The notes beneath the pieces are model-generated. The model was not told where the DNA came from, did not search any database, and worked only from the letters and a program-made list of their open reading frames with translations. DNA of 64,000 nucleotides from Ulva prolifera (Eukaryota; Chlorophyta; Ulvophyceae; Ulvales; Ulvaceae): positions 2,882,430 through 2,946,429 of the forward strand of contig CM041204.1 of NCBI GenBank assembly GCA_023078555.1, read 5' to 3'. Every line of letters starts with the position of its first letter. Position 1 is the first letter of the stretch. Both the position numbers and the translations under genes were made by a program. Positions 829-62,821 of the stretch are shown piece by piece.

Positions 829-3800
829 ATGTTTTCATCCATCATTGCAGGAGCTGCGCTGCTCGCGCCACTCGTAGCGGCGCAAAGTGGTGGTAAGCGC
901 CGAGGCTACAGACCTGCATCCTCGGAACGTTGAGCCCTGCTTTGCAGCCTGCAGTGGTGAAGGACCTGTTGATCCCGAGCCCGCATGGCAAATCTGAATG
1001 AGCGTCGATATTTTCCCGCATACTGTGGCTGCTCAGCTGGCTCTTTCAATGGGCTTCCGTTTGACTCGTGCTGACCACGGACAATACTGTGCAGACTCCG
1101 TCGTACGATGCAGCATCTCCGGAACTGGCCTGGCTGGCTCCCAATCTCAAGAGGTAGCCACTGAAGTGGGTACGCCCTTTACACACTGCCGAAACGATCC
1201 CCATACTGACAAGCTCTAACCCTGTGTGGCCTAGCAGCATTGCATGCTGCTGACATGTGACCTCTCAAAAGCGCTCCTGACCACCTCCTGACCAAGCCAG
1301 ACTGGCCTGATAGACGTGCGGTTTGTGCAGTCGGCATCGCTTCTTTGTTCCTATGCGGCAATGAGACCGCATCAAGTGAGGCCGCCGTTATCGCGGCTGG
1401 GGCCATTGCCAATGCGACCGCCTTTGCCATCACCACCGCCTCCGCCGACTGCTTCGCAAGTGTGCTCCGGGCACCCCTCTCCCAGTGCCCTGCCCCTCTA
1501 GACCCACTGCTCAGTTCCCACACAGGCTTCTATATACTGTCGTGCACAACAATTGACCACACATTTGTTGTTTGCCTATTGTTTTGTTCCGGCATTGGTG
1601 TGTTACACTACAGTATGCACACCATCTGTCACTCTGCATTTTGTTCTCCTCATCTGGCTGCTCCTCTTCATCTTGGTTGACGCTGAGCCCGTCCGCCGCC
1701 GTGCAGCCGGCAGCTCGCGCTTCCGCATCAATGGCCGCAGCGCCGCTGGCGCGGAAGCCGTCGCCATCGCGTCGGCGATTGTGGACGTCGCGGGCACCGT
1801 CGAGGTGTGCGGCGAGTGCTCCGTCGCCGCCGCGCTCTGGGCGCGCTCCTACGAAGAGATCCTCATCTCCGCCTCCTCCGTTTCCGAGCTCGCGCTCAAC
1901 GGCACGTCGACGCCGGGTCAGCCCCTCGAGCTCCGCACCTCCGCTTTCCGTGCCGAGTTTGTGACAGCCAGTGCTGATGCCACCGCGGACGTGCGCCCCC
2001 CCCCCCCCCCCCCCCCCCTCGGGTCTTATATAGCCATCAGCAGTTGGTTCAAGCTATTTGCTGTGCATTCATGAGCCTTCGCTGAACCTCAAGAGCTAGC
2101 GTCTTTCCAGTCTATTCTATAAATCACGCAGTGGGTGCTCCTGTGTTGACAGATGTGCGCTGTGACCCTGCATGTCCATGCATGCCCCCATGGTGCTGGC
2201 ATCTAGGAACCCGTGGTGCGCGTGGTCAATTTCAACGGCTTGGGAATCGTCGTCCATGTGGGGCAGCCTCTCATCACGCATGATCGTGAAGCGTAACTGA
2301 CGAGGCGTGGTGTGCATGCAGCTGCTCGTCGTGCTCGCGGGCGCCGTCGGTGAGGGCTGCAATGCGACGATCCTCGCTGATATCGGCAGCGACCTCAACG
2401 GCATCGCGTGCAACGTCAGTGCCGCCGGCAGTGCCCAGAGCGCGGAAAGCGTCGCCACCAGCTTTGCCGGTCGCGCCGGTGTCAACGTCGCCGCCAAGCC
2501 GTGCGGAGTGGAGATCGAGACGAACGGCACTGTCGTCGTTTCTGTGCGCACCCCCCCTCCCCCCCCCCCCTGTGCATTGTTCGTTGCAGCAGAATGAGAA
2601 ACAGCAACATATCTGTACATACATGCCCGGCTCGACTCCTGTGTGCAGCCGCAAACGTCTGCAGCACCTGCTCCGCACGTTTTGCATGAACTCGGTGTGT
2701 ACGGCTGTACCCATGCACCGTTTGAGGGAGCATGGTGGCGCCATCGGCGACAGTGGTGTCTCTCAATAGGTCTGCATGCACACTGTGGTGGTGTGATTGT
2801 TTTAGCAGCCAGCTGACTCGGATCATGTGTGTGTGTGTGTGCAGCAAGTTGCGGAGGCTATGGCTCTCGCGATCGCGGAGGTGCAGGCGACCTGCCTCAT
2901 CGCTGGCGATGCATACGTCTGCGCCGAGGTCGGCGCCGCAATCAACGCCACCGCCAACGTGCGCCTCCCTGCGCCTCCTCCAACGCCATCGCTGTCAATC
3001 CACTGCCGCGTCTTTGTCAAGATTGCGCGTGTTCCCGCGGACCACCGGGGTTCACGCCCGTCACCATGCACTATGCTGAAACACTCATACATACAAGCGT
3101 GTTTCCCGGCCTCTGTCCTTTGTAATTACATACAAGCGTGTTTCTTTGGGGTAGCTTGGCTCTTGTTTGGCGCTAGCACATCCGCAACTATGCAGCACTC
3201 CCATAAACAACCTCTACAGTGCCGGAGCAGGGCTGCCTCTGTCCTTATGTGTACCCAGCCGTCCAATTGTGCTCGTTGCTGGATGAGTCAGGCCCGCCCG
3301 CAACGGGCTGATGCGGTGAATATCAACTGACCTGTGGCACTGGGGGTTGCAGGCCACAGCCACCGCCTTCGCGTCTGCGTATGCGATGGAGACGGAGACG
3401 TGTGGCGCAGAGGTGTGCACGCTGCGCCTCGCGACGCTCGTCAGGGTCTGCCGCACCATCCTCATCCAGTCCGCGTCCACCCTCTACCTCAACCAGTGCG
3501 CCGGTGCGCTCCTCATCTCCCCCACGTGCATCCGCTCCACCCAGTTGCAGCCTCCGTGGCATTCATATGTCCGCCTGCAGCTCGCATTCGCAATGAACCT
3601 GCTCATCTCTCCGCAAATATCGTGGACTTGGGCAGCATTCGTATGAGCATTCGTATGGCCCGAACGGCGGCTATGTGTTGGGATATTGGTAGGTTGGCGG
3701 TGACCGCTTACGTATGTGTGTGCCTGTGGCTTGGGGGGCCTTGTTGAGCTGACCCATGCCTGCTGGTGTATGCGTGGCAGAGCATTGATCCTGATAAGGG

Positions 3801-4368
3801 TGGCGTGCAGGTGGCGACTCCTTCTTCAGCGTTTCAGCTTTCCAGTCCACCCTCACTGAGGTCATTCTGGAGCCTTTCATCGAGGTCATCGGCCAGGTGC
3901 GATCTTGACCTCCACCACTCTTGCGTCCCCAGCATTTCACTGGCAGGGCTTTGATCTGAATTGCGCCCCGTCAAACCCACATGTTGCATGAGGCAGGAGA
4001 TGCTACTGTAACCATAAGAAGCCACCTGCGACAGGGCAAAAGTCCACTTCACGTGACACTCCGCTGTCGTGCAGATCCAAGCCATCTCCGGCCGCTGCTC
4101 CGTCACCCTCCCCATCTTTGCTGTCCCAGTTGAGAACGATGACGACGACGATGATGATGATGACATGATGTTCCCGATGTGTGGCGATACATGCGCCCCG
4201 GACAACAGGGTCTGCTTCGGCAAGGACTTCGACGCGCCACTCGCATGCTGCAGCCCTGACTACGTCTGCGTGCGTCGCGACGAGGACTTCTCGCAGTGCC
4301 GCCTCAACGGCCGTCCTGGCACCTTCGTCGAGTGGGACGGCCGCGAGGAGGTTTGCATCTCGGCCTAG
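829..4368 (+). CDS. paralogue A: secreted Cys/Ala-rich nine-exon protein with poly-Asp linker
   Basis: Nine exons: 829-892, 1095-1169, 1331-1459, 1707-1990, 2322-2543, 2845-2958, 3353-3503, 3811-3896, 4075-4368. Joined they give an open frame of 472 residues. Intron phases are 1,1,1,0,0,0,1,0, identical to paralogues B, C and D. Residues 1-19 form a signal peptide (MFSSIIAGAALLAPLVAA), so the protein is probably secreted or on the cell surface. The middle (about 22-375) is Ala/Asn/Val rich with regularly placed cysteines and NAT-type N-glycosylation sequons. Exon 9 begins with a GRCSV segment, then nine consecutive Asp, then an eight-Cys module (CGDTC, VCFG, CC, YVC, FSQC, EEVC) ending at TAG. 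The function is unknown; a cell-wall or extracellular-matrix role is inference. The start is the ATG that opens the signal peptide. Introns 4 and 5 have C-rich tracts just after the donor. Confidence 0.85.
1996..2018. repeat. poly-C tract directly after a 5' splice site
   Basis: An uninterrupted run of 23 C begins five bases into intron 4 of paralogue A, right behind the donor GTGCG. A similar C-rich stretch follows the next donor (about 2550-2570). Confidence 0.95.
3084..3140 (+). repeat. fragment of the LINE 3' tail inside an intron
   Basis: The segment contains TTCCCGGCCTCTGTCCTTTG followed by TAATTACATACA. This matches the 3' end of the non-LTR element at 49497-53694, flanked on both sides by short ATACAAGCGTG copies. 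It lies in intron 6 of paralogue A. Confidence 0.75.
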
Positions 4369-6424: not shown

Positions 6425-6462
6425 CTCAGTAAATCTAGATTTACTTTACTTTACTCAGGTGC
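6425..6462 (+). repeat. SINE 3'-tail fragment
   Basis: CTCAGTAAATCTAGATTTAC followed by repeated TTTAC matches the 3' end of the tRNA-like SINE family best seen at 41672-41945 (minus strand). Only the last part of the family is present. Confidence 0.7.
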
Positions 6463-6584: not shown

Positions 6585-7122
6585 CAATGTACAACGAGAA
6601 ACTGGGGGACATCATGTTTATGCCGCTGGGTGACCCTTTGTGCATAGGAGATGTGTCGGTTGTGAACCCCTGTGCTGGTTCCTATTGCGGCCGTGCGGCC
6701 CGCGAGGACGGGGGTGCTGCGGAGACGCGGGACGTGCAGAAACGCACTGCTTATCGTTTGTACGACCCTGATGCGTATAGTTTCGTGCCGTTATCGCATG
6801 AGACGCATGGTCGCTTGGGGCGGCCTGCCATGAATCACATGAATCGGCTGGCGGAGGTTGCGTCTCGGTGTGGTAAGGTGAACCGCACGTGCTTTGTTTG
6901 TGACGAATGCTCTGCGCCGGTTGAGTGTGGCGTTGTGCAAGGGGAATGCTCTTGTGCTCCGTGCGGGGCTTCAATCTTTGGCTGGCATCACCGGCCGAGC
7001 TGTGGTACGTGCTCGTGCCCGGCCTAGTGCCATGACTGCGTGAGTGGATTTGCGTGTGTATTCCTGGCAACGGCTCGCTGCCCGGCCTCTGTCCTTTGTA
7101 ACTACATACTACATACTACATA
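6585..7122 (+). pseudogene. 5'-truncated, frameshifted LINE copy
   Basis: This copy starts within the C-terminal endonuclease region of the LINE protein (LGDIMFMP motif) and continues through the 3' untranslated region. It ends in TTTGTAACTACATACTACATAC. Compared with the full-length copy it has a four-base insertion in the AACCG/TGCTTTG region (about 6884), which shifts the frame and turns the end into a Cys-rich nonsense peptide. The 5' junction is preceded by CATGCATACATACTACA, like other copies. It is a dead, 5'-truncated insertion typical of target-primed reverse transcription. Confidence 0.85.
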
Positions 7123-11617: not shown

Positions 11618-14600
11618 ATGCGCTCTCCGAATCCCCTCAGGGCTGCGTACGCATGCTGCTGCGCTGTGCTGTGTGCGCTGCTCGCGAGGGCTCCCGCGCC
11701 AGCCGCCGCGCAGAACTACTTCGGCGACTACGGTCCGCTGCCCCCCCCCCCCCCCCCTTGCCTGCAGCAGAGTCCGGCTGCATGTGAATCACCTGTTTCT
11801 GTGGCAGCCAGAATCGGTGGTGACTTCCCTCGCCTGCGGCTCTGAGCACTGCTGCTGTTGCAATGCCGTTGCGTCTGGGGGCGCTATGCACACCTTCGCG
11901 GCCATGCCATACGATGCTCCGCGCTGCTGACGCTGCGGTGGTGTGGTGCAGGCTCGTTTGACGTCTGCCTTGATGCCCTCTTCACGCAGACCGGCAACAG
12001 CTTCGCCAACCTCGACCAGACTGGCTCCGCCGTCCGTGCGCCCCCACCTCGCACTGCTGCTGCTTCCGGCTTGCCTCGTGGTAGCACACGATGTCCTTGC
12101 CAAAGGCGACGAGTGAATTTTGCCTTGTTTGTCATTGACTTCGGGTGTCCTAAGCAGAAGCACCGCTCCCGGCCGCGCCCGTCTCCAGATGATTGTGCTG
12201 CTGCAACCAGCGTGACTCATCAAGACGGGCAGTTGAAGTGCTCGTGATGTGTGCAGTGGAGCTCGTGCAAGAGTTTGTGTGCAGCGGCGATGCCGCGCAG
12301 ACCAGCGAGCAGGCGGCGCAGCGGGTCGCTGCGGAGGTGGCGGAAGGCATCACCAGCCTAAGTGCCATCTGCTACGAAGGCACGCTGCCCTCCCCCCCCC
12401 TCCCCACCTTCGTCCCGCCCCCTGCCCCCCTGCCTGACTTCCTTGCAGCTGCATGGGTCTTCACTGCCACCTGCAGCGTAGGTGGTTTCCATGCATGATG
12501 CTCAGCGGCCCCTCCCCCCCCATCCCTGGCGTCCACACTGGGGGCCACGTGTATCGCGCTCCTGCAGTGCCCCTGTGTGTGTCGACGATCTTCCGCGAGA
12601 CAGTACAGATTCCTGCGCAGTGGTTTGCTCGCGCTGGCCCGTCTTCTGCAACAGCCAGGCGGATCGACATGTGCGTTGCTGCTGGTGCAGATGGCGCTTC
12701 GCTGCTCGACTTTGGGGGCCAGAACGTCGCCATCTCGGCCGCCGACGAGATCGCGCGCGTCGTCCGCTCCAACCTGCGCCAGCTGCCAGACGGCGCCTGC
12801 GGCGACTGCCCCGTGGCGCTGCAGATCCTGTCCGAGGCGCTCGAGGGCATCCTCGTCGGCGCGGCGGCGACGGCGGAGCCCGTGCTACTGGACGCCGGGG
12901 CCGGCACCCCCTCCCAGGCGGAGCTCGACGACTTCTCGGCGCAGCTGCGCCGCGGAGTGGCCTCCGGCCTCACTGAGGTGCGCATGCTGCGTGCTGTGCG
13001 CTGGGACACACGGACGCGTTGCGTTTCCACAGCTGGGTCATGCACTGACACCGCCAAAGTTCGGAGATGTTCTCCGGAATTTCGATGGGATTTGGGATAA
13101 AATTTGACGTGCTAGTGGGAGTAGGTTAAAAGAGGGGGGGTGGGGTGCGGGCGCTCTGGCCGTTGTGATCGGTGTGACTCCTGTTTGGCGTCTGCCCAAT
13201 TGCCGTCAAATGTATACGCTGAGGAGCAACCTGTGATCAACTGACTGCGTGTGCCGTGTGCAGCTGCTAGGCTCCGTCCGGGAGGCGGCGCGCAGCTGTG
13301 ACGGCGAAGTGCTGTTCGTGGTTGCGGCCGGAGTGTCGGGGCGGGAGTGCACGGTCGACGTCGCGCTGTCGGACGCCGCGCCGGTCGTGCGGGGCGTGTC
13401 GGAGCGCGCAGGCTCCGCGCTGTCCTCGCTCGCGTGCTCTGAAGACGACGCCCCCGACAACTCCACCGAGGCGGTGCAGGTGCGCCCCTACGCCACCCTC
13501 ACCGCTCAACTGCTCTGCAGCGACCTGGCCGTGCCTTTAGGGGTCCGCATCGTGCAACTGTAGTCAACATGCAGTGGTGGGTTTGTATGTTTCGTTCGTG
13601 CCGGAGTGCCGCTGTAACGGTGGCGGGGGGGTGCAGAATATCGCGATCGCGGTGGCGCGGGGCATCTCGGAGGCTGGGGCGACATGCATCTCCCGGACGA
13701 CGGACGTGCGGCCCTGCCTGTACACCCCTGAAGACATCTCGGCGATTGCTGAGGTGCGACCTTCTATCGAGGCGCCCCCTCCCTCTCCTACCTGCAGCCT
13801 ATTGTTTCTCAAAACTTTTGTAGTCGAAAAATACCCAACGACCCGGCACTAGTTGGTGTGCATGGCAGTGGCGTGCCACGTAGTCCAGCGGCACTAGCGT
13901 CACATTCAGGAAGAGATATGTTGCTTGCAAGCACCCCAGGCCGATGTCTGAGTGCATGCATGCTCGAGTACACGGCCATGATGTCTCTCGCTCCGCCCCT
14001 CCCCCTCTCCTACCTGCGGCTTTCATCAGTTCAAGTTGACTCAGCAGGTAGCTTATGTCCGCCCGAGTCCGCAGAGCTGGCATGCGAGTCAGGCTGCAGC
14101 ATGCGATTGCAGCCACCTCCTGCGCTGTAGTCGGGATGCCAGTGGCAGGAAACAAATGTAAATGTTTCACAAATGTAAATGTGATTCGCTGTGCAGGATG
14201 TGGCGGAGAGGTTTACGACACGCTTCAACGGCCTCGTCTTCTTCTGCGACCCCCGGCCCTGCACCTCCCGCCGCGCCAACTTCACCACCGCCGTGCTCGC
14301 CGTGCTCGAGCCCGCCGCGGCCCAGGCCGTCAACGAGCAGTGCGGTGTGGGCCCCACTTCTCATGCCCCACGGCGCACACCCTCATCGCTTCACAGCCGG
14401 ACGCTGGGGGATGCCACTTGGCACAGCCATCGCTCCTGCCTGCAGCTTGTGCTCCCGACCGCTTGTCGCTGTCATGGGTTATGGTCTGCACAGAACATCT
14501 GATGCACTGCGTCAGGCCGGGCCGTTGCGTGGCTATCCGAAGAAAGTGCTGACCGCCTGGGTTGGGTGCACATCCGGATCAACCACAAAACTCCCAATTA

Positions 14601-16441
14601 TTCGAGCCGGGTTTGAGAAACCCCGACATCGGGGGAACAGGCCCGACCCAACCCTCCTGACTCCACACCACTGCAGCGCAGTCGCTCATGCAGCCGCCGT
14701 GTTGGCGAGGACTGAGATTCAAGAAGTGTGTGTGCCGTGCAGGGAGTGGAGATGTACTGGACATCCCAACTGCGCAGGATCGGCTAGTGGAGCTGGCCTT
14801 CCCCGACCTCTCGCGCCTCATCGACCGAGTGCGGCCCCTCAGCCACCGCTTCGATACTGCCTCGCTTCCATGCGGGCATTGTGATGTGACCGCTGAATTG
14901 ACACTCTCCATGCTCTCGGGATCAGCCCAACCTGTGTCTTGCACTGCAGCGCCACTTTCTGTCTCCAAGTGCCGACACAGCCGTCGCCCCCGCACAGCTC
15001 TTCTGCTTGGCTGCAGAAGTCGCATGTGTGTCATCATTGAGGCGCTGTGCTGCGGCACGGCAGCCGTGCGCTGGTGTCTTACCAGACCCACCGCACGGCT
15101 TCTTTATTTCACGTGTTTGGGTGGTTGTAGGTTCTGGTGATCGGTGGCGAGTGCGATCTTGAAATCGGTCGCGCTGCCCCCCCTGTGGGCCCCCCGGCAC
15201 TCCCCGCAGTGCCGCCCCCGGTGCCACCCCCAATGCCGCCACCGGTGCCACCACCAGTGCCGCCCCCGGTGCCACCACCAGTGCCGCCCCCAGTGCCGCC
15301 CCCGGTGCCGCCCCCGGTGCCACCCCCAGTGCCGCCCCCGATGCCACCACCAGTGCCGCCCCCAGTGCCGCCCCCGCCTCCACCAACAGTGCCGCCACCG
15401 GTGCCGCCCCCAGTGCCACCGCCGACTTTACCCCCAGTGCCGCCCCCGGTACCACCCCCGGTGCCGCCCCCAGTGCCACCACCATTGCCGCCCCCAGTGC
15501 CACCCCCAGTGCCGCCCCCGCCTCCACCAGCGGTGCCGCCTCCAGTGCCGCCCCCGCCTCCACCAACGGTGCCACCACCGGTGCCGCCCCCAGTGCCACC
15601 GCCGCCTCCACCCCCAGTGCCACCCCCGATGCCGCCTCCAGTGCCGCCCCCGCCTCCACCACCGGTGCCACCCCCGGTGCCGCCTCCAGTGCCGCCCCCG
15701 CCTCCACCCCCAGTGCCACCGCCGCCTCCACCCCCAGTGCCGCCCCCGCCTCCACCCCCAGTGCCGCCACCGGTGCCGCCCCCAGTGCCACCCCCGCCTC
15801 CACCAACGGTGCCACCACCGGTGCCGCCCCCAGTGCCACCGCCGCCTCCACCCCCAGTGCCACCCCCGATGCCGCCTCCAGTGCCGCCCCCGCCTCCACC
15901 ACCGGTGCCACCCCCGGTGCCGCCTCCAGTGCCGCCCCCGCCTCCACCCCCAGTGCCACCGCCGCCTCCACCCCCAGTGCCGCCCCCGCCTCCACCCCCA
16001 GTGCCGCCACCGGTGCCGCCCCCAGTGCCACCCCCGCCTCCACCCCCAGTGCCACCGCCGCCTCCACCCCCAGTGCCGCCCCCGCCTCCACCCCCAGTGC
16101 CGCCACCGGTGCCGCCCCCAGTGCCACCCCCGCCTCCACCCCCAGTGCCACCGCCGCCTCCACCCCCAGTGCCGCCCCCGCCTCCACCCCCGGCGGTTCC
16201 TCCAGTCGATGAGCCAGCTATTGGCCCGTCCGAGGTGGCTGTCCCAGTCGCGCCAGCTACGATCGATCCACCCCCGCCCGACATTCTGTCGGCCATTGAC
16301 CTCCTGGCGCCGGAGTACGAGCCTCCCGTGGAGGCGCCCGGCCCGGAGGGCGACCCAGACGAGGCGGCAGGGCCAGGCGAAGCGCCGTCCGCAGACCCTC
16401 CTCTCTCTCCGCCGCTCGCTCCCGCGGTCCCACCCCTGTAG
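11618..16441 (+). CDS. paralogue D: secreted Cys/Ala-rich nine-exon protein with huge Pro/Val tract
   Basis: Nine exons: 11618-11732, 11952-12035, 12257-12379, 12691-12977, 13264-13479, 13637-13753, 14197-14344, 14743-14828, 15131-16441. Joined they give 828 residues with phases 1,1,1,0,0,0,1,0, as in A, B and C. Residues about 1-31 are a signal peptide. Exons 2-8 carry the family modules in diverged form, keeping the cysteines (EFVCSG, CGDC, CISR, CDPRPC, NEQC). Exon 9 starts with GGECDLEI and then enters a Pro/Val/Met tract (PPPVPP units) over about residues 411-747. It closes with an acidic Pro/Ala tail ending in PAVPPL and a stop. The eight-Cys module of A, B and C is missing. Intron 3 needs a GC donor (GAAG|GCACGC) to keep frame and phase. 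By analogy with hydroxyproline-rich glycoproteins, this is probably an extracellular-matrix or wall protein. Confidence 0.8.
15185..16195 (+). repeat. coding minisatellite (PPPVPP units) with an exact 240-base duplication
   Basis: Tandem variants of CCGCCCCCAGTGCCACC encode Pro-Pro-Pro-Val-Pro-Pro. The block 15556-15795 is repeated without change at 15796-16035 (80 residues), and shorter sub-blocks recur up to 16190. The reading frame is kept throughout. Confidence 0.95.
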
Positions 16442-17883: not shown

Positions 17884-20800
17884 TCAGCCCTGCGCCGCGC
17901 AGAGCGCGACCCCATGCATCGCCCCCACGGCCACAGACGCGACAGGTGGCAGCCCCTCCGCCTGCTGCGGCGAGAGCACCGCGTGGCCCTCCGGCCCCGG
18001 CGGCCCGACCCCGAGCATCCCGCTCGCGTTGTTGCCCCAGCCGTACACCTCCCCCTCCGCCGTCACCGCGAGCGTCGCTGTCGGCCCGCACACCACCTGC
18101 ACTTCCAGCATTTGAGTGAAACGGCCTGCTGCTGCGGCAACACTGAGGCATGGGATGACATGTGGATCTTCAGGTGTGCAAGGAGCTGCCATGCTCAACC
18201 CGAGGCCACACAGGGGCTGCAGCGGAGCCAGGGGCGGGATGCAGGTTGCCGCACAAACATGCACACAACACGGGTGGTGTCGGTGGTCGTGGGGCACAAC
18301 AGCACGCTTCGCGTATGATGTGCCAACATGCATGCATGGTTTGAGCCTCGGCAGGGATGGCCAGCGACACCCCAGTCAGCAAGTCGGAAGACCCTCCACA
18401 TACAGCAGCAAGGGGGGGGGGGGGGGTTAGGGGATCGCACATGGTCGACGACGACACCCTGGAGGCCGCGCACGCGGGTAGGGGAGGGGCGGTTGGCGGT
18501 GTCGCCGTGGCCGAGGGCCCCGTGGCGGCCCATGCCCCACGTGTACACCTCCCCATCATGCGACACAGCCGCGCCGTGGAAGCCCCCAGCGGCCACCTGC
18601 ACATGCATGCGCTTGCAGTGCCCAAAACCGCGGCCTTCGCCAATGCATGCACCTCGCCTCGCCACAGCATCACCCACTAGTGTCCCGCACATGCAAACAC
18701 TACAGTAGTGACTACACATCTCAGCAGGTGCGCTTGTTTTGAGAGTTGCAAGAACTGGAGAGTATACTCGGGCGCGCACCTGCTTGACGCGGCCGTCGGA
18801 GAGCGCGTTGACGAGGTTCGGCCGGGAGCCGCTCCACGCCCACTGCCCGGCGCCCTGCTCGCCGTTGCCGTTGCTGCCCCACGCGTACACCTCCCCCGAC
18901 ACCAGCACCGCGAACGACATGTAGCCGCCTGCGGCCACCTGCACCGCGCCCTCCGGCAGCGCCACCTGCACCACCCCGCCTCCCCTCACGTCTGTACACG
19001 TGCCGCTGCAGACACATGCATGCAGCTGCATACAGACCCTACGGCCTCGTTTGTGCAATGTACATGCCGTCGCCGTTGACAATCTGGCCTTGAGCCCAGT
19101 CTGGCCTTGATGGCTCGAAAGTCTGGCCGATGCTTAACAGTCTGGCCGTTGCCGTTGACAGTCTGGCCGTACGCACAGTCGCTGATGACCTTGCCTCATG
19201 CAAGGTAAAGCACAGTAGGCCTATATTCACCTAGCTATACGCTGACTGGTATTTGTAGGACACGGCTCGACACACTGGCGTGCGGTTGCATGAGGGTGTT
19301 GCTCTGTGTTGTCTGTTGGTGGTTGAGTGCGTGTGAGGTGCCCCTGTTTGTGGCCTGCGGTGTGGCCTGCCGCGCTGGCTTCGCCCTTGTAACACGCCGA
19401 TGTGCGGTCATGCTGGCAGCAGGAGGTGCTTGGTGGCAGCAGGGAGGTGCTTGGTGGCAGGCGACCTGCCTTGGGCATGCAGTGCAGGTGAGCTGGTAGT
19501 AGTGGCGCACCTGGTGGAAGGCAGGCAGCACGTTGGAGCTCTCCAGTGCTGGCACCTGCACGACCGCCCCACATCTGCACATGCATGTGGGTGCGGCTGC
19601 ATCACGTACGGCTGTTGCCACATTCTAGCTCGCAGCTCTGGAGCCTTCAGCAAGCTCAAGGCTAGACTCGTGGAGACCAGGCAGCGTCACGATCGTTGTT
19701 CGGTGCCTGTTGCTCCCGGGCGGCATGCATGATTGGCTGCTGCGAAGCGACAACGGCGATGCTGCTGGCTGTTGTTGCCGTTCAGTTGTGCTCTGTTGTG
19801 CTGTGTGGGAGCAGGCAGGGTGCCACAGGGCTGCCCTGCAGAGCATGCCTGAACACTACGGTGTGGGAGGTGGGTGGGGGCGCACCTGGAGGCCGAGGCG
19901 GCCATCTCCATCGTCCCGGCCACACGAAAACACCCGCCCAAACCTGCACGTCTGCGCACCGCTGTGAGCCTGGCACCGGCAGTGGTACACGCATTGGGGT
20001 GGGGTGACTGCGTGCGTGGGGGGCTTACAGTGGGGGCGGACGCAGACAGGAGCCGCTACGGCAGCAGAGGAGAGGGCGGTCAGAAAGCCGGGGCGCAGGA
20101 AAACAGCAGGTGGAAGTATTGAGGAGTTCCTCGACCGGCGGTGGTGGATGTAGGTGCAGGCGGCGACAGTGCTGACGAGCCGTTCTGGAATCGAACAGAG
20201 TAGACACTGTCTACTCTGCTCGATTCCAGAACGGCTACTAGACAGCCACCGTGATTGCACACACAGTGATGCAGCACCGCAGTAGCTGGACTGAGAGGCA
20301 TGCTGGTGAGAAGGTGGGACGTTGAGGGCTTGTGCTGGCCACATCCGCTGTGCATCCACAGAGGGACAGCCATAGAACTGTGTTACCCAAAGCGCTTTCT
20401 CGCCGCACACTGACGGCAGGGTATAGCACCAGTGTCTACTGAGGATACAGCCTTGGAGATGGACGTCGCCCCAGGAGGCACTGATGCTGTCAGGGAGGCT
20501 GTGGAGGTCGAGGCAAACCTGTCCACAAGCAGGCTGTGAGCTCCCGCAGCAGCTATGGCTGGAGTGTCATTGACGATGGGGACCTCGTCCCAGTGCTGCA
20601 TTATAAGCGCCTCAAACGTTTGCACTGGCGCCGGCTGCAGCTCTGACGTGAAGTGCTGCTGGCCTAAACATCCAAAGTCTCCCATGCCCCAGCTGAACAG
20701 ATGCGATTTCCCCATGTGTCCCGATGGATCGGTGCCTGATGTGTGGAATTCAGACGGCACATCTTCAGGTTGTTCACTATTACTATAAATCTGATGTTCC

Positions 20801-46972: not shown

Positions 46973-47016
46973 CGGAGTTGTCAATGTCCAAATGGATACG
47001 GCTATGTAATCATGCA
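46973..47016 (+). repeat. SINE 3'-tail fragment interrupted by a LINE
   Basis: GGAGTTGTCAATGTCCAAAT then GGATACGGCTATGTAATCAT is the SINE 3' sequence up to the point where CATACATAC and a truncated LINE begin. The SINE and LINE may have been joined by insertion into this CATACATAC. Confidence 0.6.
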
Positions 47017-47025
47017 TACATACAT

Positions 47026-47146
47026 GCCGGCCGAGCTGTGGTACGTGCTCGTGCCCGGCCTAGTGCCATGACTGCGTGAGTGGATTTGCGTGTGTGTTCC
47101 TGGCAACGGCTCGCTTCCCGGCCTCTGTCCTTTGTAACTACATACA
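47026..47146 (+). mobile_element. strongly 5'-truncated LINE copy (3' end only)
   Basis: Begins CCGGCCGAGCTGTGGTACGT, near the end of the LINE reading frame. It continues through GAGTGGATTTGCGTGTGTGT and ends CCTTTGTAACTACATACATG. It is preceded by CATGCATACATACATG. Confidence 0.85.
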
Positions 47147-47304
47147 TGCCTGTGTTTTTTCTAATTGTGAAGACGCTTTTGAAGTTTCTCATGTGCACTT
47201 GCCCGTAGTGGGTGTGCACTGGCCTGGTGAATGAGTGGATTTGCGTGTGAGTTCCTAGCAATGGCTCGGTGCCCGGCCTCTGTCCTTTGTAACTACATAC
47301 ATGC
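47147..47304 (+). mobile_element. truncated copy of the second (249-codon) unit
   Basis: Starts at GCCTGTGTTTTTTCTAATTG within the 3' end of the 249-codon frame. It runs through the stop and the shared 3' tail GAGTTCCTAGCAATGGCTCG to CTTTGTAACTACATACATG. It sits directly upstream of complete copy 1. Confidence 0.85.
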
Positions 47305-47320
47305 GTGACTGTATACATAC

Positions 47321-48240
47321 AACCGCTTATACATTATATTGATTATCGTCGTTCGTTTCTTCACTCCATAGCTCGGGTCGGTCGTGCTGCGGTGCACGGC
47401 CGGCTCGTAGTCGTTGATTTAAATGTCCATACTGCTGTCTGATTCTTTCGCGCTCGTTCGTTTCATGTCGTCTCTGCTCTGCGCACCACAGGCTTGGCAC
47501 GCTCTGGTCCGACTCAGCTGTGACGGCATGTCTGCTACTCCTGCCGCTATGTCCCTTGGCGGCGAAGGTCATACGGTTGCACTACAAGTTATCACTTTAA
47601 TATTGTGCGGCGTTTGGCTCGCTTCTGGGCATGGCGGATTGCCAGCATGCTCCGTTCTGCGGGTCGGCTTGGGGCGGTACCGGCGAGGCACACATGTCTG
47701 CATGTTGCCTTCCGTTGTCAGCGGTCGCGCGGACGAGGTTCAGCGAAGCTTTTCATCTAGGTTCACGTTTCAGTGGCGCCGCTATACCCTTTTATGGCGC
47801 CCTAGCGGCTTCGAGATGATCATGGCTTCAGCGGTCCCGCGTCCTGCTGCACTGCTGCGTACAGCCAATTCTGTCGGCACCCAGCTGCTGCGTACAGGTT
47901 CCCAGTGTGGAAGTTATGATCCCATGTTCATCCGCTACGATACCCCGTTCTCTGAAAATTTGCGGTGCGTGAGGAGATGGTTTCCTGCTGGCTGTACGCC
48001 AGCGCTGTTTGCTGCAACGGCTTTGACGGTCATGCGACGATGGGCTGCGTGGTTGATGACTAGCTGCTTCCTTGTGAAGCTGGATGCCTGTGTTTTTTCT
48101 AATTGTGAAGACGCTTTTGAAGTTTCTCATGTGCACTTGCCCGTAGTGGGTGTGCACTGGCCTGGTGAATGAGTGGATTTGCGTGTGAGTTCCTAGCAAT
48201 GGCTCGGTGCCCGGCCTCTGTCCTTTGTAACTACATACAT
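47321..48240 (+). mobile_element. second repeated unit, copy 1 (249-codon open frame 47423-48172)
   Basis: The unit begins AACCGCTTATACATTATATT right after an ATACATAC and ends with a 3' tail about 85% like the LINE tail, finishing CTTTGTAACTACATAC. It carries an open frame of 249 codons starting MSILLSDSFALVRF and ending VHWPGE. I recognise no domain in that product; it has Cys/Trp-rich and hydrophobic stretches. It differs from copy 2 by a single base change in the frame (Val/Ala). It may be a 5'-truncated relative of the LINE or a non-autonomous passenger using its 3' end. Confidence 0.7.
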
Positions 48241-49496: not shown

Positions 49497-52400
49497 GCCA
49501 TACTGGTCTTTGTCGTACGTCTGTCGTCTGTGCTGTGTCGTGGTCCCGATGTAGACGCATGCCAAAAGAACCCGGCTGCGGGAGGCAGCAAAAAGAAAAC
49601 GAATAGGCCCTTAGTTGTGTTCTGTCGTCCGCTGTCGTGCAGCTGCAACGAATACGCGCGCCAGCTGCCAGTGTTCCGTCGTTCTGCAGCCCCACTAGAA
49701 TGCCAGCGGACTAACCGCCAGTGGCCTGCAGCCTTGCCCATTTGGAACACCTAGATGTCTGATCTATGTTTCGCCTGGCCTTCCTGGTGACCCGCTTGGC
49801 TGTGCAGCCGTCATGTCGGCGCGGGCCGCTGGCTGCCCGCGTGCCGTTGTCCGGCAGTCCCACTGGCAATCCTGCGGACTAGCCGCAGGTGATCTGCAGA
49901 TTTGATTCGTTAAAAGTGTTGTGTGTTTGTTGTTTTAGTTTTGTGCCGTCTGGCCGGTTCAATGGCCCGTTAGACTGCACCGTTAGTGTGTCCGCTTTCA
50001 GCGGAACGAGTCCCTGCGTATGAGCTTTCAGTGTCCATATGACGGATGCAGCGCTAGTCTCTCCTCCCATTCAAGTCTGTTCACCCACATCCGAGGAATC
50101 CATCGCGACGGGCCGAGGCTGCCTACTGCGAAGCTGCACGAACTCAATGCCGCGTACTGCTCTCACTGTGGCATGTTCGGCTCCACCAAGACCCCTAAGG
50201 CGCATAAATGTGTGGGAGGTCAGAACAGGAGCTTGAGGTCAGGTCACTGCGTGCTGCCCGCCACACATCCGGCCCGACAGCCCGCCCCAGCCCAACCCGC
50301 CCCAGCCCAGCCCATCCCTGCCCAGCCCGCCCCAGCCCAGCCCGCCCAGCCGCAGCCCGCCCAGCCGCAGCCTGCCCAGCCTGCCCAGCCGCACCCCCAT
50401 CAGCCACCCCGTCACTTCACCGAAGCCCCCGCCGCCGCCCACAACACCGCCCAGCCCAGGCCCTCCCCGAAGGTCCCGGACACCGTCCATCCGGAGTTCG
50501 GCGACGCAACGGCCGAGCTCCTCAGAGATTTCAACGATGCCAGCGACGCGTCAAACATCGACGGAGCACGACTGGCCCTGGGCCGCGTCCTCGACTTCCC
50601 TGGTAAGGTTCTGTCGCTGAAGGGAGGGGACGGCACGGCGCGCCGCGCTCGTTCATGCATCACGCTGTTCATGGACGGCGCGGAGCCCAGGCTGGCGGAG
50701 CCCACTCCGAGCCAGAAGCGCAGAATGAATCAGAACCAGGATCGCCGCCTGGCGGGCTCCGTCCACAGGTCACTGAGCGACGGTAATGTCCGCAAAGGCG
50801 CGGAGAAAGTGGAGGCGCCGCCCATCGCCAGGTACACCCCGGAAGTGCATGAGGCGCTGCGGCACCTGCATCCCGCAGAAGCGCTCCCCCCCGACACCCA
50901 GCCCGCCGAGCCCGCGCCCCCGCTGCAAATCGACGAGGCGACGCTCCGCGCACTGCTCGACAAGCTGCCGAAGGGCAGCGGCCCAGGCCTGTCGGGGTGG
51001 ACGTATGAGCACATCCGGGCTGCTGGCACGGCCTCCACGGCCGCATTCACGGAGATTCACCGCTTCGTGAACGCGGCCCTCGCCGGCCGGCTGCCACACC
51101 TCCCGCGCTTGCTGGACTGCCGCCTCCTCCCGCAGGAGAAGCCACAGGGAGGCGTCCGCCCTATCGCCATTGCAGAGACGTGGCAGCGCCTGGTAAGCCT
51201 GTGCGCCATGACCCTGTGCAGTGGCCTGGGTGCCTCCCTCGCGCCGCTGCAGGTGGGGGTCGGGGTGCCAGGGGGCGCGCAGAACCTGGGCCATGCTGCG
51301 CGCGCCGTGCTGCAAGCGTGGGACGATGTCGTGCTTGTGCAGCTGGACTGGAAGAATGCATTCAACATGATGTCCCGTGCAGCCATCTTGGAGGCCGTTG
51401 CGTCTCACAAGCCTGCGCTGCTGCCCTTCGCCACCATGCTTTACAGGTTCCCCGCAAATCTCTACATCGAAGGCGCACCGCCTGGCACCGCTGCAATCAC
51501 GTCGCAGCGCGGCGTGCGTCAAGGCGACCCCATCAGCCCGCTGCTCTTCGCCCTGGCCCTCCAGGGCCCCCTCCAGGCAGTGCAGGCCCAGCACCAGCCA
51601 CCCGGGAGGGAGGTCACGGCCGCCCTCATGGCGTATCATGACGACTGCACCATCGCCGGGCAGCGCGTGGACGCCGCCGCCGCATTCCGTGCGCTGGTCT
51701 CGGCAGCAGAGCCCCTCGGGCTGGAGCCCCAGCTGCACAAGTGCACGGCCTACTCGCGCGACCCCCAGCATGCGGGATCCGTCGCGGCCGCGCTCGGCAT
51801 AACGCATGCCACAGAGGGCACCGTCATCACCGGCACGCCCATCGGCACCCCGGCGTTCGAGTCGGCGCACGCGGAAGCGACGGCCGACAAGGTGTGCGCC
51901 ACCATCGAAAAGATGATGCGCTTGCCCCTGAAAGCGCAAGACCAGTTCTTGCTGCTCACGATGTCCTGCCAACGCCGTATGCTGCACTTCGCCAGGGCGG
52001 TGCCGTGGGCGCACATTTCCGATCACATGCGCCGGACGGAGGCGTCCGTCCTGGCTGCGGTGAATGAAATCATGCGCGTCCCGCGGGACGACACTCGTGC
52101 GGCCGCACAAGCCGTCCTTCCAGCGCGCCTCGGAGGCCTGGGCGTCACGTCCACGCCGCAGGAGGTCGCGGACGGAGCGTACCTCGCTGCAGCGGCGGTG
52201 AGCCAAAAGGCGTTCGCAGGAGGCCCCGAGTGCATGCAGCCGTACCGGGGGCCGCACGGGCAACAATTGCAGGAAACCTGGCAGGCCCTCAACGTCGCTC
52301 AGCAGCTCCATCCGGAGCTGCCCGGGCCGGCGAGCGGCGACACCATCGCCAAGGTGTTACCTGGTATGCAGCAGCGTATCACAAAGTTGGTTGCCCTGCG

Positions 52401-53694
52401 CCGCCGGGCAGCTCTGCTTGCCAGCCATGATGTCGCCACGCTCGAGGGTGCATGCAACTTGGCACGGCTTCGCAGCTGTGCTTGCCGTGCAGCCACCCTT
52501 TGGTTGAGCACCCTGCCGCTCTCCCAGGCGCTGCGCATGACTGACATTGAGTTCATGCTGTGCATCAGGTATCTCCTGGGCATGTCCCCAGCCCCTCCCA
52601 ATGCGGTCGGCTCGCGCTGCGAATGTGGCACTCTCATACAGCCGCATGATCTCGATCACGCGATGAATTGCACACACAATGCGGGGACCTGGACTTCGCG
52701 CCACAATATCGTTGAAAAACAATGGCGCGAGATCGGGTCCCACGCGTGTGTGGCATCCACGCGCATCCCGCGCACAGCGCCGTTCGTCCGCGCGCGGCTT
52801 GCGGCCGCATCGAGGCAGATCCATGCTGGCCCGTTGGGCCCGCACCCCCCTGCTCCGCCCCAGCCCGCCTCCCAGGTCGCGGGCCCTTCGCGTGGGGCAG
52901 CCTTGCCCGCGGCGCCGATGCCTGCAGCCCCGCCGCCGCCGCCGACCGCGCGCGCGGACGGGGCGCCGGCACCTACGCCTGCTCCGGCCGCCGACGCCGA
53001 TGCTGGACACAGCGCCCAGATGGGGCGCCACGCGCCAGACGCGGCGCAGGCTGCGGCCCTGGCGGCGGCGGCGGCGCCGGGTGGTCAGGATTTAGCGGGG
53101 CCTGGGGAGCAGGCCGCAGCCGCGCAGGCAACGGCGCTGGATGAGGTGTTCAGGGCAGTGGCCCAGGTGAAACTGGGGGACATCATGTTTATGCCGCCGG
53201 GCGACCCTTTGTGCATAGGAGATGTGTCGGTTGTGAACCCCTGTGCTGGTTCCTATTGCGGCCGTGCGGCCCGCGAGGACGGGGGTGCTGCGGAGACGCG
53301 GGACGTGCAGAAACGCACTGCTTATCGTTTGTACGACCCTGATGCGTATAGTTTCGTGCCGTTGTCGCATGAGACGCATGGTCGCTTGGGGCGGCCTGCC
53401 ATGAATCACTTGAATCGGCTGGCGGAGGTTGCGTCTCGGTGTGGTAAGGTGAACCGTGCTTTGTTTGTGACGAATGCTCTGCGCCGGTTGAGTGTGGCGT
53501 TGTGCAAGGGGAATGCTCTTGTGCTCCGTGCAGGGCTTCAATCTTTGGCTGGCATCACCGGTAGGGCTGTGGTACGTGCTCGTGCCCGGCCTAGTGCCAT
53601 GACTGCGTGAGTGGATATGCGTGTGAATTCCTAGCGATGGCTCGCTGCCCGGCCTCTGTCCTTTGTAACTACATACATACATACACACACTCCA
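49497..53694 (+). mobile_element. full-length non-LTR retrotransposon (LINE) with restriction-like endonuclease
   Basis: A single long open frame (50020-53610) is preceded by about 520 bases of presumed 5' untranslated sequence. It is followed by a short 3' end (GAGTGGATATGCGTGTGAAT through CCTTTGTAACTACATACATA). Both boundaries lie in ACATAC repeats. No long terminal repeats are present. The architecture (N-terminal zinc fingers, central reverse transcriptase, C-terminal Cys/His motif and endonuclease) is that of R2-like LINEs. Confidence 0.85.
50020..53610 (+). CDS. LINE ORF: zinc fingers, reverse transcriptase, restriction-like endonuclease
   Basis: The product has 1196 residues. N-terminus: a C2H2 finger (Cys5, Cys10, His23, His28) and a second Cys/His motif (Cys47, Cys50, His62, Cys64), then a Pro/Ala/Gln-rich linker. 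Reverse transcriptase motifs: QGGVRPIAIAETWQRL, LVQLDWKNAFN (catalytic Asp443), GVRQGDPISPLLF, MAYHDDCTIAG (Asp541, Asp542; YHDD instead of the common YADD) and GTPIGT. After the thumb comes a Cys/His knuckle (Cys867, Cys869, His880, Cys884). Near the end is a restriction-like endonuclease pattern: LGDIMFMP (Asp1054), IGDVSVVNP (Asp1068), then Lys1098. Such elements nick the target and prime reverse transcription there. The frame is intact, so this copy could have been active recently. It starts at the first ATG, just before the finger. Confidence 0.9.
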   Translation: MSFQCPYDGCSASLSSHSSLFTHIRGIHRDGPRLPTAKLHELNAAYCSHCGMFGSTKTPKAHKCVGGQNRSLRSGHCVLPATHPARQPAPAQPAPAQPIPAQPAPAQPAQPQPAQPQPAQPAQPHPHQPPRHFTEAPAAAHNTAQPRPSPKVPDTVHPEFGDATAELLRDFNDASDASNIDGARLALGRVLDFPGKVLSLKGGDGTARRARSCITLFMDGAEPRLAEPTPSQKRRMNQNQDRRLAGSVHRSLSDGNVRKGAEKVEAPPIARYTPEVHEALRHLHPAEALPPDTQPAEPAPPLQIDEATLRALLDKLPKGSGPGLSGWTYEHIRAAGTASTAAFTEIHRFVNAALAGRLPHLPRLLDCRLLPQEKPQGGVRPIAIAETWQRLVSLCAMTLCSGLGASLAPLQVGVGVPGGAQNLGHAARAVLQAWDDVVLVQLDWKNAFNMMSRAAILEAVASHKPALLPFATMLYRFPANLYIEGAPPGTAAITSQRGVRQGDPISPLLFALALQGPLQAVQAQHQPPGREVTAALMAYHDDCTIAGQRVDAAAAFRALVSAAEPLGLEPQLHKCTAYSRDPQHAGSVAAALGITHATEGTVITGTPIGTPAFESAHAEATADKVCATIEKMMRLPLKAQDQFLLLTMSCQRRMLHFARAVPWAHISDHMRRTEASVLAAVNEIMRVPRDDTRAAAQAVLPARLGGLGVTSTPQEVADGAYLAAAAVSQKAFAGGPECMQPYRGPHGQQLQETWQALNVAQQLHPELPGPASGDTIAKVLPGMQQRITKLVALRRRAALLASHDVATLEGACNLARLRSCACRAATLWLSTLPLSQALRMTDIEFMLCIRYLLGMSPAPPNAVGSRCECGTLIQPHDLDHAMNCTHNAGTWTSRHNIVEKQWREIGSHACVASTRIPRTAPFVRARLAAASRQIHAGPLGPHPPAPPQPASQVAGPSRGAALPAAPMPAAPPPPPTARADGAPAPTPAPAADADAGHSAQMGRHAPDAAQAAALAAAAAPGGQDLAGPGEQAAAAQATALDEVFRAVAQVKLGDIMFMPPGDPLCIGDVSVVNPCAGSYCGRAAREDGGAAETRDVQKRTAYRLYDPDAYSFVPLSHETHGRLGRPAMNHLNRLAEVASRCGKVNRALFVTNALRRLSVALCKGNALVLRAGLQSLAGITGRAVVRARARPSAMTA

Positions 53695-59146: not shown

Positions 59147-62100
59147 TTAAACAGGGTTACAGCGCTCGATGGTGCCGTCCCAGCCGCGGGGGACGGGGCG
59201 GGTCGCCAGGCGGCACTGGCTGAAGCGCTCATTGCGGCGGAGGCAGACGTAATTCGGGTCGCAGCATGGCGCGGGAGTGGCGCCGAAGCGGGTGGACGAG
59301 CCGAAGCAGCGGCGGTTGTTGGCGACGCACGTTCCGAAGCAGTTGGGCAGCCCCGGGTCGGTCGTGACGACGGCCGGGGGTGGGGGGGGAGGTGGGGTGA
59401 CCACGGGATCGACGACAGCGTTGCCTGGGTCGGTGACGACGGTTGCAGGAGGTGGGGGAGGGGGGGACATGGGGGGGGGAGGAGGAGGAGGAGGGGGCAT
59501 GGACGAGCGTGTGGTGGTGACCACAGGGTTGCCGGTGACCGCGGCGACGATCTCAGGGATATCGAGGATGCACTCCTGGCCATTGATCACGGTCACCTGC
59601 ACAGCACACACAGGCGGTTCAGAGGTGCCGTCGGTGTGTCCCTGCAGAGGTGACATCAGTGTACCCTACACGTTGCATGCACCACGACCCACACGGCATG
59701 CGCCACAGTCCCACTACAGGTGCCGCCAGAGGCAGTTTCGGCATATGTGGTCCGGTTCACTCGGAGTTGTCAATGTCCAATAGGATACGGCTCAGTAAAT
59801 TCAGATATATTTTACTCTGCTGTGCACCAGGACCAGCAGGTCCACTCTCCACCTGCAGAAGGTTGTGACAAATGACCGGGCCGATTCACATCCACCCCAC
59901 GCCTGTGACTGCGGCACTGCCTGCGCGCGCATCCGCGCATGCATGCGCACATGGCACTGCGCACACAGGCTGCGCAGATGCATGCTTCTGCACAAAGAGC
60001 AGTCAGGCTGCAGAACACGACTCAGCCTCAACGTCATGCATCACCAAGCAGCTATGTGATGTGCATAAGCAGTGAACGGCAATGATTCAGAATTTCATGT
60101 GCGCAGTTTCTGCGCTGCCCGCAGCAACGAGTGGCAGGGAGAGGGGTGTAGGGGCGCACGTTGGCGATGATTGTGGTCAGGGCAGTGAGAGTAGCCTCCT
60201 GGATCTGCTCCTCAAAGACTGTCCTGTTGAACACGCTGGCCATCGGGTCTGCACACAGAGGCACCCACTTATCAGCACAACCGTGACCATCAAATTTCAC
60301 CACAAGTTTGTCCCGTGCTCGGTACGCTGCGAACTGCTACACACCCGCCCGCCGCAGATCTCAACACACAAATAAAACTAGCACACACGCTGAGCATCAC
60401 TGGTGAAGACTCGCATGGCCCTACAGTCTGAGAGCAGGGCACAATGCGTCGCCAATGTGATCTCACGGTGCTGATCCATGAGACACGAGAGAACAGAGAA
60501 GGCTCGGTTCTGATCGAGGGCATGCATTCACACATCTGAAGCAAGGGGTGGAGCGAGGGCACACCACTGCACTGGTTTAAGACAGCCCTGGCGGAGGCGA
60601 AAGAGAGCACGAACGAAACGGCCTCGACGAGGACGTTGGTGTCAACCATGCATGTCGGTGGGTCGCAGGTGCTGATGGCAGCCGCGTACAGGAACCCGAA
60701 CGCCTCTGCAGTGGCCTGCATGGATCACACAAAATCAGCGCAGGCCTTCAGAGCAACACCACGGGCGCGTGCTCGGATGGCAGCAATGCCTGACTATTGC
60801 TGCGGAGAGGAAGATGGGAGGGTGTCGGTGGCCAGAGTGAGCGGTCCCAAGTGTGTGGACGTTGACTGGATGTGGTGTGTTACCACTGCTGCGTGGGGAC
60901 GACTGTGCAGGAGGTGCTCGGTGAGGGAATGAGATGTGGTGGGGTGTGGCAGGCTTGATCAGGACGGAACTGTTGATGTGCAAGGCGGTTGAGGCGACAC
61001 ACGACAACAATGGTGGCTGGCGTGTGAAAGGCGCGTTCGAGAGGCGCACGTTGGCGGTGGCATTGACCTCAGCCTCAGAGAAGGCACAGACTTGGGCATC
61101 GCCTGCGATGACACATGAGGTGGAGATCTGAGCGAGAGCAACGGCCTGGGCGCTTGCGATCGCCTGCAACAAAAAACCCCGTCCTTAGCTACATTGTTCT
61201 GCTGTGCAGTGCTGCATGCGGCTCACCGAGCAAGAGCCGCAGAGGTCATGACACTGTTCACACTGGCTAGGCTTTTTCTACGGAGGGCATTTGGGTAGAG
61301 CCAAGGGAGGAGGGTGCACACCTCAGCAGTGACATTGATGTTGGTCGTGGCGATCGCATTGTTGCATCCCATGGCCTCGATATCTACGATGGTCTCGGAC
61401 AGAGCATTCATTGACACACTGTTGTTGGCTGCGGTGACATCAATCGCGCAGACACCGCCATTTTGTCCCAGATCTCCAACGGAGAACAGAGCTGTGGCAT
61501 TGCAGCCCTGGCCGACGGCAGCCTGAACTGTTCCGAGGACCTGCAAGGGTCTATGCTGCTCAATGAACCTGGCGAGAGATTAGCTTCAAGTCGCCTACGA
61601 TCATTGGCAGGAGACGCCACTTCTACTACAATACCGCTGGAGACCTTGGCACGGCGAGTCGCAGATACAGTGGAGGGAGGCGCACAGACGCATATGCTAT
61701 CGCGGAAGCATTTATGATATCCTCGACAATGTCATTCGCGATAGCGACTGCGGGCATGCCCATGGTGGAGTCGCCCTCGAGGTTGGCCTGCGCGAGCGCT
61801 GACGCCTGAAGAACAATCTCTGTGTACGCCTCGGCGAACAACTCGGTGGCGATGCTGCAGGTTCCACAAGCATCGCTCTCCAGCACAAGGGATACAACAG
61901 AACTAGCAATAGCCACGGCCTCAGCCTCGACCAATGATCTGCCATTCAGGCGGAAGCTAGCACGTCCGTCTGCAGTCACACACCACTCCGGTCAGAAAGC
62001 ATCTGGAAAGATTGCAAACGAGTTCGGGGACACATTCAGCATGTAGAACAAGTGCTAGAAGGCCCGGCACCAAATGTACGTGCCTCCGGCTTGACAGGCT

Positions 62101-62821
62101 GACTGAGAATGGCGTTCACAACAGGGCAGGAAGGGACGCAAGGACCGCACTTGCAATGCACTGAGCTGTCACGCTCGCGATGGCGAACGCGGTGGCATTG
62201 GCAACCTGGAAGGCTGTGGCGTTAGCTTGTTCCGTGACAACACCAGGTGAGTTGCACACGTAAGCAGTCACTGTCTCAACTGCACCACACCAGTCCTGGT
62301 CAGAAGCTTGGATGGGCATGGTCAGCCCAAGTCGACAGTTAGGTCACACTGCTTGAATTTTCAGCTGACAGCGAATGAAAGGTCGACCCTGGGCATAACA
62401 AGGCACATATTCCGGCAGGCTTCCAGGCATGGCTTCAAGCACATGAGCCAGCAACAGATGCTGCCATTGTAATATACAAAGAGCTCACCTACAGTGACAG
62501 CCACCTCGGCTGACTGGGAGCCTCCAATTCCACGGCCATTGAATGTGCACCTCGCGATGGAATCTGCAGAACTCATTCAGGTGAGAGTCATGGGCCCAGG
62601 CGAGCCCTGAGCAGCACACTGTGCTGTGCCACAGCTGTGGACAACAAGCTGGAGCAGATCATATCACATTCGGCAGCACAGTACATCTTGCCAGCCACTA
62701 AGACACATCACAGGCGCCTCGAAGACAAGACGGCACCTTGGTTGATCTGCGCAGAGGCAGAGGGGGCCAGCATCGCCGCCCCCAGCCCGAGGGCGGAGAT
62801 CATAGTCTTAGAGGACACCAT
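59147..62821 (-). CDS. paralogue B: secreted Cys/Ala-rich nine-exon protein with poly-Pro linker
   Basis: Nine minus-strand exons: 62821-62737, 62563-62489, 62279-62151, 61969-61686, 61540-61322, 61163-61050, 60715-60565, 60248-60160, 59596-59147. They encode 531 residues with phases 1,1,1,0,0,0,1,0. Exons 2, 3, 4, 6 and 7 (75, 129, 284, 114, 151 bases) have exactly the lengths of those in A. A signal peptide lies in residues 1-25. The modules are CTFNGRGIGGS, VCNSPG, SFRLNG with CGTCS, GCNATALF, CVIAGDAQVC, CDPPTC and LNQC, then FEEQIQEATLTALTTI. Exon 9 has GQECILDIPEIVAAV, poly-Pro segments and the eight-Cys module (CFGTC, RRCFG, APCC, YVCLRR, FSQCR, ERCNPV, stop TAA). It is closest to A in the Cys module. 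The role is unknown; an extracellular location is inferred. Confidence 0.88.
59735..59818 (+). repeat. SINE 3'-half copy inside an intron of paralogue B
   Basis: GGCATATGTGGTCCGGTTCA, then GGAGTTGTCAATGTCCAATA and GGATACGGCTCAGTAAATTC. It lies in intron 8, antisense to the gene. Confidence 0.75.

Follow-up and report, generated by a model that had tools for sequence, protein, structure and literature searches.

In a window of 64,000 nucleotides from the green seaweed Ulva prolifera (assembly GCA_023078555.1, contig CM041204.1, positions 2,882,430 to 2,946,429 of the forward strand), we identified four genes, named here A to D, that share one nine-exon plan and belong to a large Ulva family of putatively secreted proteins which, in our judgement, probably build or tie the cell wall and extracellular matrix. 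Gene A (829–4368, + strand) encodes 472 residues comprising a signal peptide, a core with 14 cysteines, a poly-Asp linker and a cysteine-rich domain. Gene B (59147–62821, − strand; 531 residues) has the same order of parts with a proline-rich linker, and gene C (33620–38341, − strand; 605 residues) has it with a linker of MNMT/MNTT repeats. Gene D (11618–16441, + strand; 828 residues) encodes a signal peptide followed by the most divergent of the four cores. Because these signal peptides are present, the products of A–D are predicted to be secreted. The peptides were read by eye in A–D and in four relatives from protein databases (P0001, P0002, P0004, and P0010), which agrees with an earlier note on this DNA that had described the proteins as secreted.

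The earlier note had proposed nine-exon models with a common phase series and whole codons, and all four were reproduced to the base, with their ends at the same coordinates. Exon lengths are 64, 75, 129, 284, 222, 114, 151, 86, and 294 bases in A; 85, 75, 129, 284, 219, 114, 151, 89, and 450 in B; 97, 75, 135, 284, 216, 114, 151, 86, and 660 in C; and 115, 84, 123, 287, 216, 117, 148, 86, and 1,311 in D, so that the lengths listed by the note as shared match those recomputed here. The phase series is 1,1,1,0,0,0,1,0 in each of the four models. Donor sites are GT in 31 of 32 introns, the remaining one being the GC-AG intron 3 of D (12380–12690, + strand), which occupies the same place as the third intron of A, B, and C; acceptors are CAG in 31 of 32 introns and TAG in one. 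All seven introns within the core of A, B, and C fall within one column of common positions. With a spliced-profile aligner and a profile that excluded D, the seven core introns of D were recovered at the same places, GC donor included; a wider profile found six of the seven, the first being missed by local alignment. The six pairwise BLASTP comparisons of A–D gave best E-values from 1.5e-9 to 1e-47 (A versus B 4e-30, A versus C 9e-29, A versus D 1.5e-9, B versus C 1e-47). The four sequence motifs that had been reported as shared all exist, but none occurs in all four genes: ANATAFAI is restricted to A and B, NQC is present in A and B, CGxCS in A, B, and C (D has CGDCP), and CDPxxC in B, C, and D.

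The junctions were compared with database relatives of A and B. A protein search with the A–D core gave at least three proteins, P0001 and P0002 among them. P0001 (530 residues) lies on a contig of 2,540 bases and P0002 (470 residues) on one of 2,708 bases, and because B and A cover more genomic sequence than this (3,675 and 3,540 bases, respectively), both relatives appear to be free of introns. P0001 is identical to B in 396 of 536 columns (79% over the core query) and P0002 to A in 327 of 477 columns, and each alignment is continuous across all eight junctions, with gaps within 10 columns of a junction limited to junction 1 in both pairs and a single column at junction 7 of B. Transcripts of a related Ulva are the probable source of both sequences, a point on which their database is silent. 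In separate alignments of single exons (22 of the 36 in the window) with eight database proteins, every exon matched a stretch of its own, and only two exon-8 rows had a few residues out of place. The protein searches, each drawing on about 8,000 best candidates, yielded at least 13 different relatives, one of which (P0010) carries the name of an Ulva mutabilis protein in its source (jgi/Ulvmu1, UM001_0305.1); one search did not recover P0002 although this protein was part of the query, so further relatives, also outside Ulva, were certainly missed. The naming of P0010 and a plastocyanin of the assembly (L032, two exons), which agrees at 98 of 98 residues with PDB 7pcy, the plastocyanin of Ulva (Enteromorpha) prolifera, mark the host as Ulva, most likely U. 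prolifera or a close relation. Scans of viral contigs with P0001 and of prokaryote genomes with alignment A2 as queries, both seeded on a few exact patterns and hence suited to close relatives only, gave no relative.

The family extends far beyond the window. Searches of the 88.9-Mb, 44-contig assembly with five cores (B, D, and those of loci L040, L046, and L049) gave matches that merge into at least 69 clusters at E ≤ 0.001, A–D included, 61 of them with two or more matches. These clusters are distributed over eight contigs, C1–C7 and C9, the last of which contains the window; the family had been described as four-membered, a count that must be replaced by this genome-wide one. From 26 candidate paralog loci, 25 were modelled with the spliced-profile aligner, L034 (score 187.9) being left out. 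Under a first profile made only from A–D, P0001, and P0002, these 25 loci scored 238–657. In the refined models, 102 of 113 introns occupy the seven core positions and phases of A–D, and the exon plan is therefore ancestral to the family and not local. The view of A–D as one gene family with one ancestral plan is thus borne out. Individual paralogs lack subsets of these introns, the last being the rarest (retained in 4 of 21); at column 131, a different intron is present in L018, L020, L028, and L046.

In a tree of 32 cores, from which L017, L024, and L048 were left out, A–D group in one clade (100/99) with L033 (C9:3.13 Mb), P0001, P0002, P0004, and P0005. D sits on a very long branch, which makes its placement uncertain. 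A pairs with P0002, B with P0001, and L046 with P0006, and L033 stands beside P0004; provided that these relatives come from another species, as their divergence suggests, these lines are therefore older than the species split. The group on chromosome 9, which the earlier note had called local, is thus real but forms only one branch of a larger family. Over the core, the ratio of nonsynonymous to synonymous substitution (dN/dS) was computed for nine paralog pairs, none of them including A–D; it was 0.07–0.56 in eight and saturated in the ninth, and the four comparisons of the closest copies gave 0.07–0.25. The core therefore appears to be under purifying selection in these pairs, with no sign of positive selection. 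The description of the family as diversifying holds for its sequences and tails. Two further groups of copies were observed in the genome. L018 (C2:315 kb), L020 (C1:6.42 Mb), and L028 (C3:8.10 Mb) are 83–97% identical on three contigs and have a common, shorter intron set; we regard them as a recently mobile branch of the family. Two weak core matches of equal score (E 0.007) lie on opposite strands 10 kb apart, at C8:230423 and C8:240336, and may represent an inverted duplication.

The core spans about 370 residues. It has 14 near-invariant cysteines: twelve cysteine columns are occupied in 27 of 27 aligned rows and two more in 26 of 27, although some pairs of rows are as little as 17% identical. 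Common cysteine positions had been noted earlier for the modules of A–D. This count took 27 of 31 rows, leaving out L017 and L035, which are incomplete, and L024 and L048, which have apparent half-core forms. Besides cysteines, the columns conserved in at least 80% of the 27 rows are Ala, Gly, one Ser, and one Phe. The two halves of the core are homologous by hhalign (probability 99, score 112.4, E 2.4e-18 over 151 columns), against best control scores of 23.4 for 100 column shuffles, 43.6 for 100 shuffles of ten-column blocks, and 52.1 for reversed halves. From this profile comparison, we read the core as a tandem duplication of a unit of about 150 residues; in gene A, the first half is encoded by exons 2–5 (1095–2543, + strand) and the second by exons 6–8 (2845–3896, + strand), with its final residues in exon 9. 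In L024 (C4:7.70 Mb) and L048 (C7:2.11 Mb), the modelled core goes no further than the final cysteine of the first half, beyond which the frame continues into a proline-rich linker and then a cysteine-rich domain or a variant of it. These two loci look like natural single-unit forms, which may be either ancestral units or later losses.

A first structure model of the core had a mean predicted local distance difference test (pLDDT) score of 47.1, too poor for a fold search. AlphaFold2 run on the core with 30 rows reached a mean pLDDT of 60.2, with ten-residue blocks at 54–82 over residues 41–200 and 74–91 over residues 281–370 and poor stretches between. The core is predicted to be mostly helical: in the AlphaFold2 model, each half consists of two helices, a short hairpin, and three helices, in the same order in both. 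No match to the second core model was found by Foldseek at E ≤ 0.001 among the folds listed from PDB or BFVD.

A–D vary C-terminal to the core, where A, B, and C each end in a domain with eight cysteines (4180–4365, + strand, in A; 59150–59341, − strand, in B; 33623–33799, − strand, in C). The copy in C is divergent and was missed by the genome search for this domain. The tail of C also has 18 N-glycosylation sequons, and up to the end of the core there are 8 sequons in A, 10 in B, and 14 in C. D ends instead in a long PPVPPP rod (repeat at 15203–16191, + strand), and its tail is 69% Pro. Among the 25 modelled loci, a regular expression detected the cysteine-rich domain in 10, variant domains were read by eye in L048 and L050, and in L017, L021, L035, L036, and L051 no tail was followed to a clear end. 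A profile of the domain gave seven matches among PDB chains, the best at E 0.001 and 0.0033 and the rest at 0.14 or above; six of the seven (E 0.001–0.43) are chains that we take to be fungal-type cellulose or xylan enzymes carrying a family 1 carbohydrate-binding module (CBM1). In CBM1, disulphide bridges link C8 with C25 and C19 with C35 (PMC3160888). These four cysteines and Gly10 are present in 12 of 12 of our domains, the search pattern itself having required them, and additional cysteines occur beyond the four. From these sequence features, the domain resembles CBM1 and may work like it. Over the genome, we located 74 places with this domain, 65 of which (E below 0.001) were used in the cluster table; for 31 of the 65, no core cluster was detected within 4 kb on their strand. 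An array of genes with the domain but no detected core occupies C4:3297–3402 kb, where one region that was read (L053, C4:3302000–3310500) shows no core, and such genes also lie at C9:36–51 kb. Two of the C9 places score identically to two on C4, which suggests a copied segment.

A different end was identified in 8 of the 25 modelled loci, in which an acidic core is followed by a mostly Thr-, Pro- or His-rich linker and then a cationic tail with a net charge of +30 to +46 and 25–41% Lys, Arg, and His. All eight belong to one clade (96/87), and the cationic end was therefore probably gained once.

Database searches gave no identity for the core, in line with the earlier statement that no described family was recognised. 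Pfam identified no core family in A–D or in 12 members, giving only single unrelated matches (the best, for one of the 12, at E 0.0009) and no CBM1 (PF00734) match in whole A–D; no NCBIfam model covers the core; and a PDB sequence search reached a best E of 0.27, with no family. In the parts of the literature covered, on Ulva matrix, secreted, wall, lectin, and CBM1 proteins and on the Ulva mutabilis locus name, no account of the family was found. The closest systems resemble it in part. Volvocine pherophorins, secreted glycoproteins of the algal matrix, likewise form large families and combine cysteine-rich globular parts with proline-rich rods; in the Ulva family, proline-rich linkers occur in B, D, and several paralogs and not in A or C. 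Unlike pherophorins, the Ulva proteins have one double-unit, 14-cysteine core followed by a linker and a cysteine-rich domain, and the pherophorin domain was matched by Pfam neither in A–D at E ≤ 10 nor among the nine families listed at E ≤ 1 for the 12 members. A wall protein of Porphyra purpurea gametophytes, reportedly described by Liu et al in 1996, is said to contain four apparent polysaccharide-binding domains. The Phytophthora proteins CBD1 and CBEL are nonenzymatic, secreted, and of CBM1 type, and CBD1 is localised to the wall (PMC3160888, PMC3532174). In these proteins, a CBM1-type domain adjoins another domain or an O-glycosylated region, a layout that the Ulva family resembles with its CBM1-like domain. 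The family differs in that the partner is a duplicated 14-cysteine helical core matching no family, that the cysteine-rich domain has about eight cysteines and has lost most of the aromatic face, and that one clade carries a cationic tail instead. Ulva also has hydroxyproline-rich glycoproteins of the extensin and arabinogalactan types (PMC9266709; PMC10762512 section 15), which the family resembles in its proline-rich rods and expected wall location. Unlike in extensins, the rod, whose hydroxylation is putative, is joined to a large disulphide-rich core. We know of no extensin with such a core. Matrix glycoproteins with rods and carbohydrate-binding ends are thus already known, and it is the core of the Ulva family that is apparently new.

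Ulva serves as a model for multicellularity in green seaweeds and is a cause of green tides, and to our knowledge the proteins that hold its cellulose and ulvan wall together are poorly characterised. Its walls contain cellulose, sulphated ulvan, xyloglucan, and glucuronan (PMC10762512 section 15). In the role we propose, the core would form a rigid and mostly helical body, locked by disulphides, which contacts further copies of the core or glycoproteins of the matrix. The CBM1-like end would make contact with neutral glycans of the wall, for example cellulose or xyloglucan; the strongly cationic tails, found in another clade than A–D, would bind the sulphated polyanion ulvan; and the proline-rich, acidic or N-glycosylated linkers would set reach and hydration. 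More tentatively, and with somewhat less than even confidence, we suggest that these proteins form an Ulva-own matrix system, independent of volvocine pherophorins, in which a duplicated 14-cysteine core with two kinds of anchor, CBM1-like and cationic, cross-links the neutral-glycan and ulvan networks.

Several observations weigh against a role in the wall. The proposed path from export to attachment in the wall is our reading of sequence features. D has neither the cysteine-rich domain nor a cationic tail. The aromatic cellulose-binding face of CBM1, formed by Y5, Y31, and Y32 with N29 and Q34 (PMC3532174), is only partly kept: an aromatic residue is present at position 5 in 3 of 12 domains, at 31 in none, and at 32 in 7, with N29 in 8 and Q34 in 7, and the Pfam CBM_1 model matches 2 of the 12 at E ≤ 1 (best 0.028). 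No fold was recognised for the core, and VIA matches to the predicted model are ordinary helical bundles. Nor is the control for the comparison of its halves clean, a reversed half giving E 5.3e-8 from biased composition, which would account for part, not all, of the raw score. Fragments or pseudogenes may be among the 69 clusters. For the cationic class, the signal-peptide exons are only candidates: those upstream of six of the eight loci (L037 and L039–L043) score 4.13–4.49, where reversed DNA reaches 4.25, and the likeness among the candidates of L039–L042 is better evidence than the scores. Finally, the cationic tails would also suit antimicrobial or nucleic-acid binding.

This last point is the basis of one alternative, in which the family serves defence, with the acidic core masking or carrying a cationic, histone-like antimicrobial tail and the cysteine-rich domain acting as a knottin-like inhibitor. 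The composition and charge of the tails in the eight loci and the gene clusters and tandem near-copies would fit, but such tails are confined to one clade and absent from A–D, and the dN/dS values, for the core only, give no sign of an arms race; we consider this reading improbable. Slightly less so, though still unlikely, is that the proteins are secreted recognition or signalling glycoproteins, for example species-specific sporulation inhibitors or gamete recognition proteins, with specificity given by the variable tails. Many divergent copies and the sequon counts of A, B, and C favour such a role, and Ulva secretes SI-1, a species-specific glycoprotein inhibitor (PMC8734247). Against it, no copy is linked to reproduction in the present data, A and B have close counterparts in another lineage (P0002 and P0001), and the rods and wall-anchor-like ends fit a structural role better.

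The core could also be a ligand carrier or enzyme held at the surface, its ends being only anchors. Helical disulphide-rich folds often carry small ligands. CBM1 is generally found with glycoside hydrolases (PMC3160888). The conserved noncysteine columns do not look catalytic, and the core model has no fold match, although a fold missing from those listed proves nothing; we regard a carrier or enzyme as quite improbable. That the nine-exon plan is a product of chance or modelling, or that the genes are dead, is scarcely credible. One donor in D is not GT, and the aligner can yield spurious paths, with opposite strands, unrelated stretches, and reversed DNA scoring up to 109.4; these controls are far below the paralog scores, on which ground a chance exon pattern was rejected. 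The apparently intron-free relatives agree with all junctions of A and B, the great majority of paralog introns lie at the seven positions, and paralog dN/dS is low.

The window contains other features besides the four genes. Between genes C and B, an open frame of 1,207 residues (49987–53610, + strand) matches RVT_1 (E 8.5e-11), has a zinc-finger-like N-terminus as read by eye, and represents a retroelement resembling those without long terminal repeats. Pieces of its 3′ part occur at 6598–7120, 47002–47406, 63007–63364, and 3103–3134, with best matches 94–100% identical; one of them sits immediately upstream of gene B, and another, of 32 bases, falls within intron 6 of gene A. A piece of an RCC1-repeat gene (RCC1 E 2.5e-17) is located at 18195–19133 on the − strand.

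A section on the Ulva wall in one review names polysaccharides, arabinogalactan proteins, enzymes, extensins, expansin, collagens, and elastins, and within that section no family of this kind (PMC10762512 section 15). If the cross-linking role that we propose is true, one core exported with two anchoring chemistries would join the two kinds of polysaccharide network in the wall of a marine alga. With its anchor-like ends, this family of some sixty loci offers direct candidates for studies of the wall proteome, adhesion, desiccation, and interaction with bacteria.

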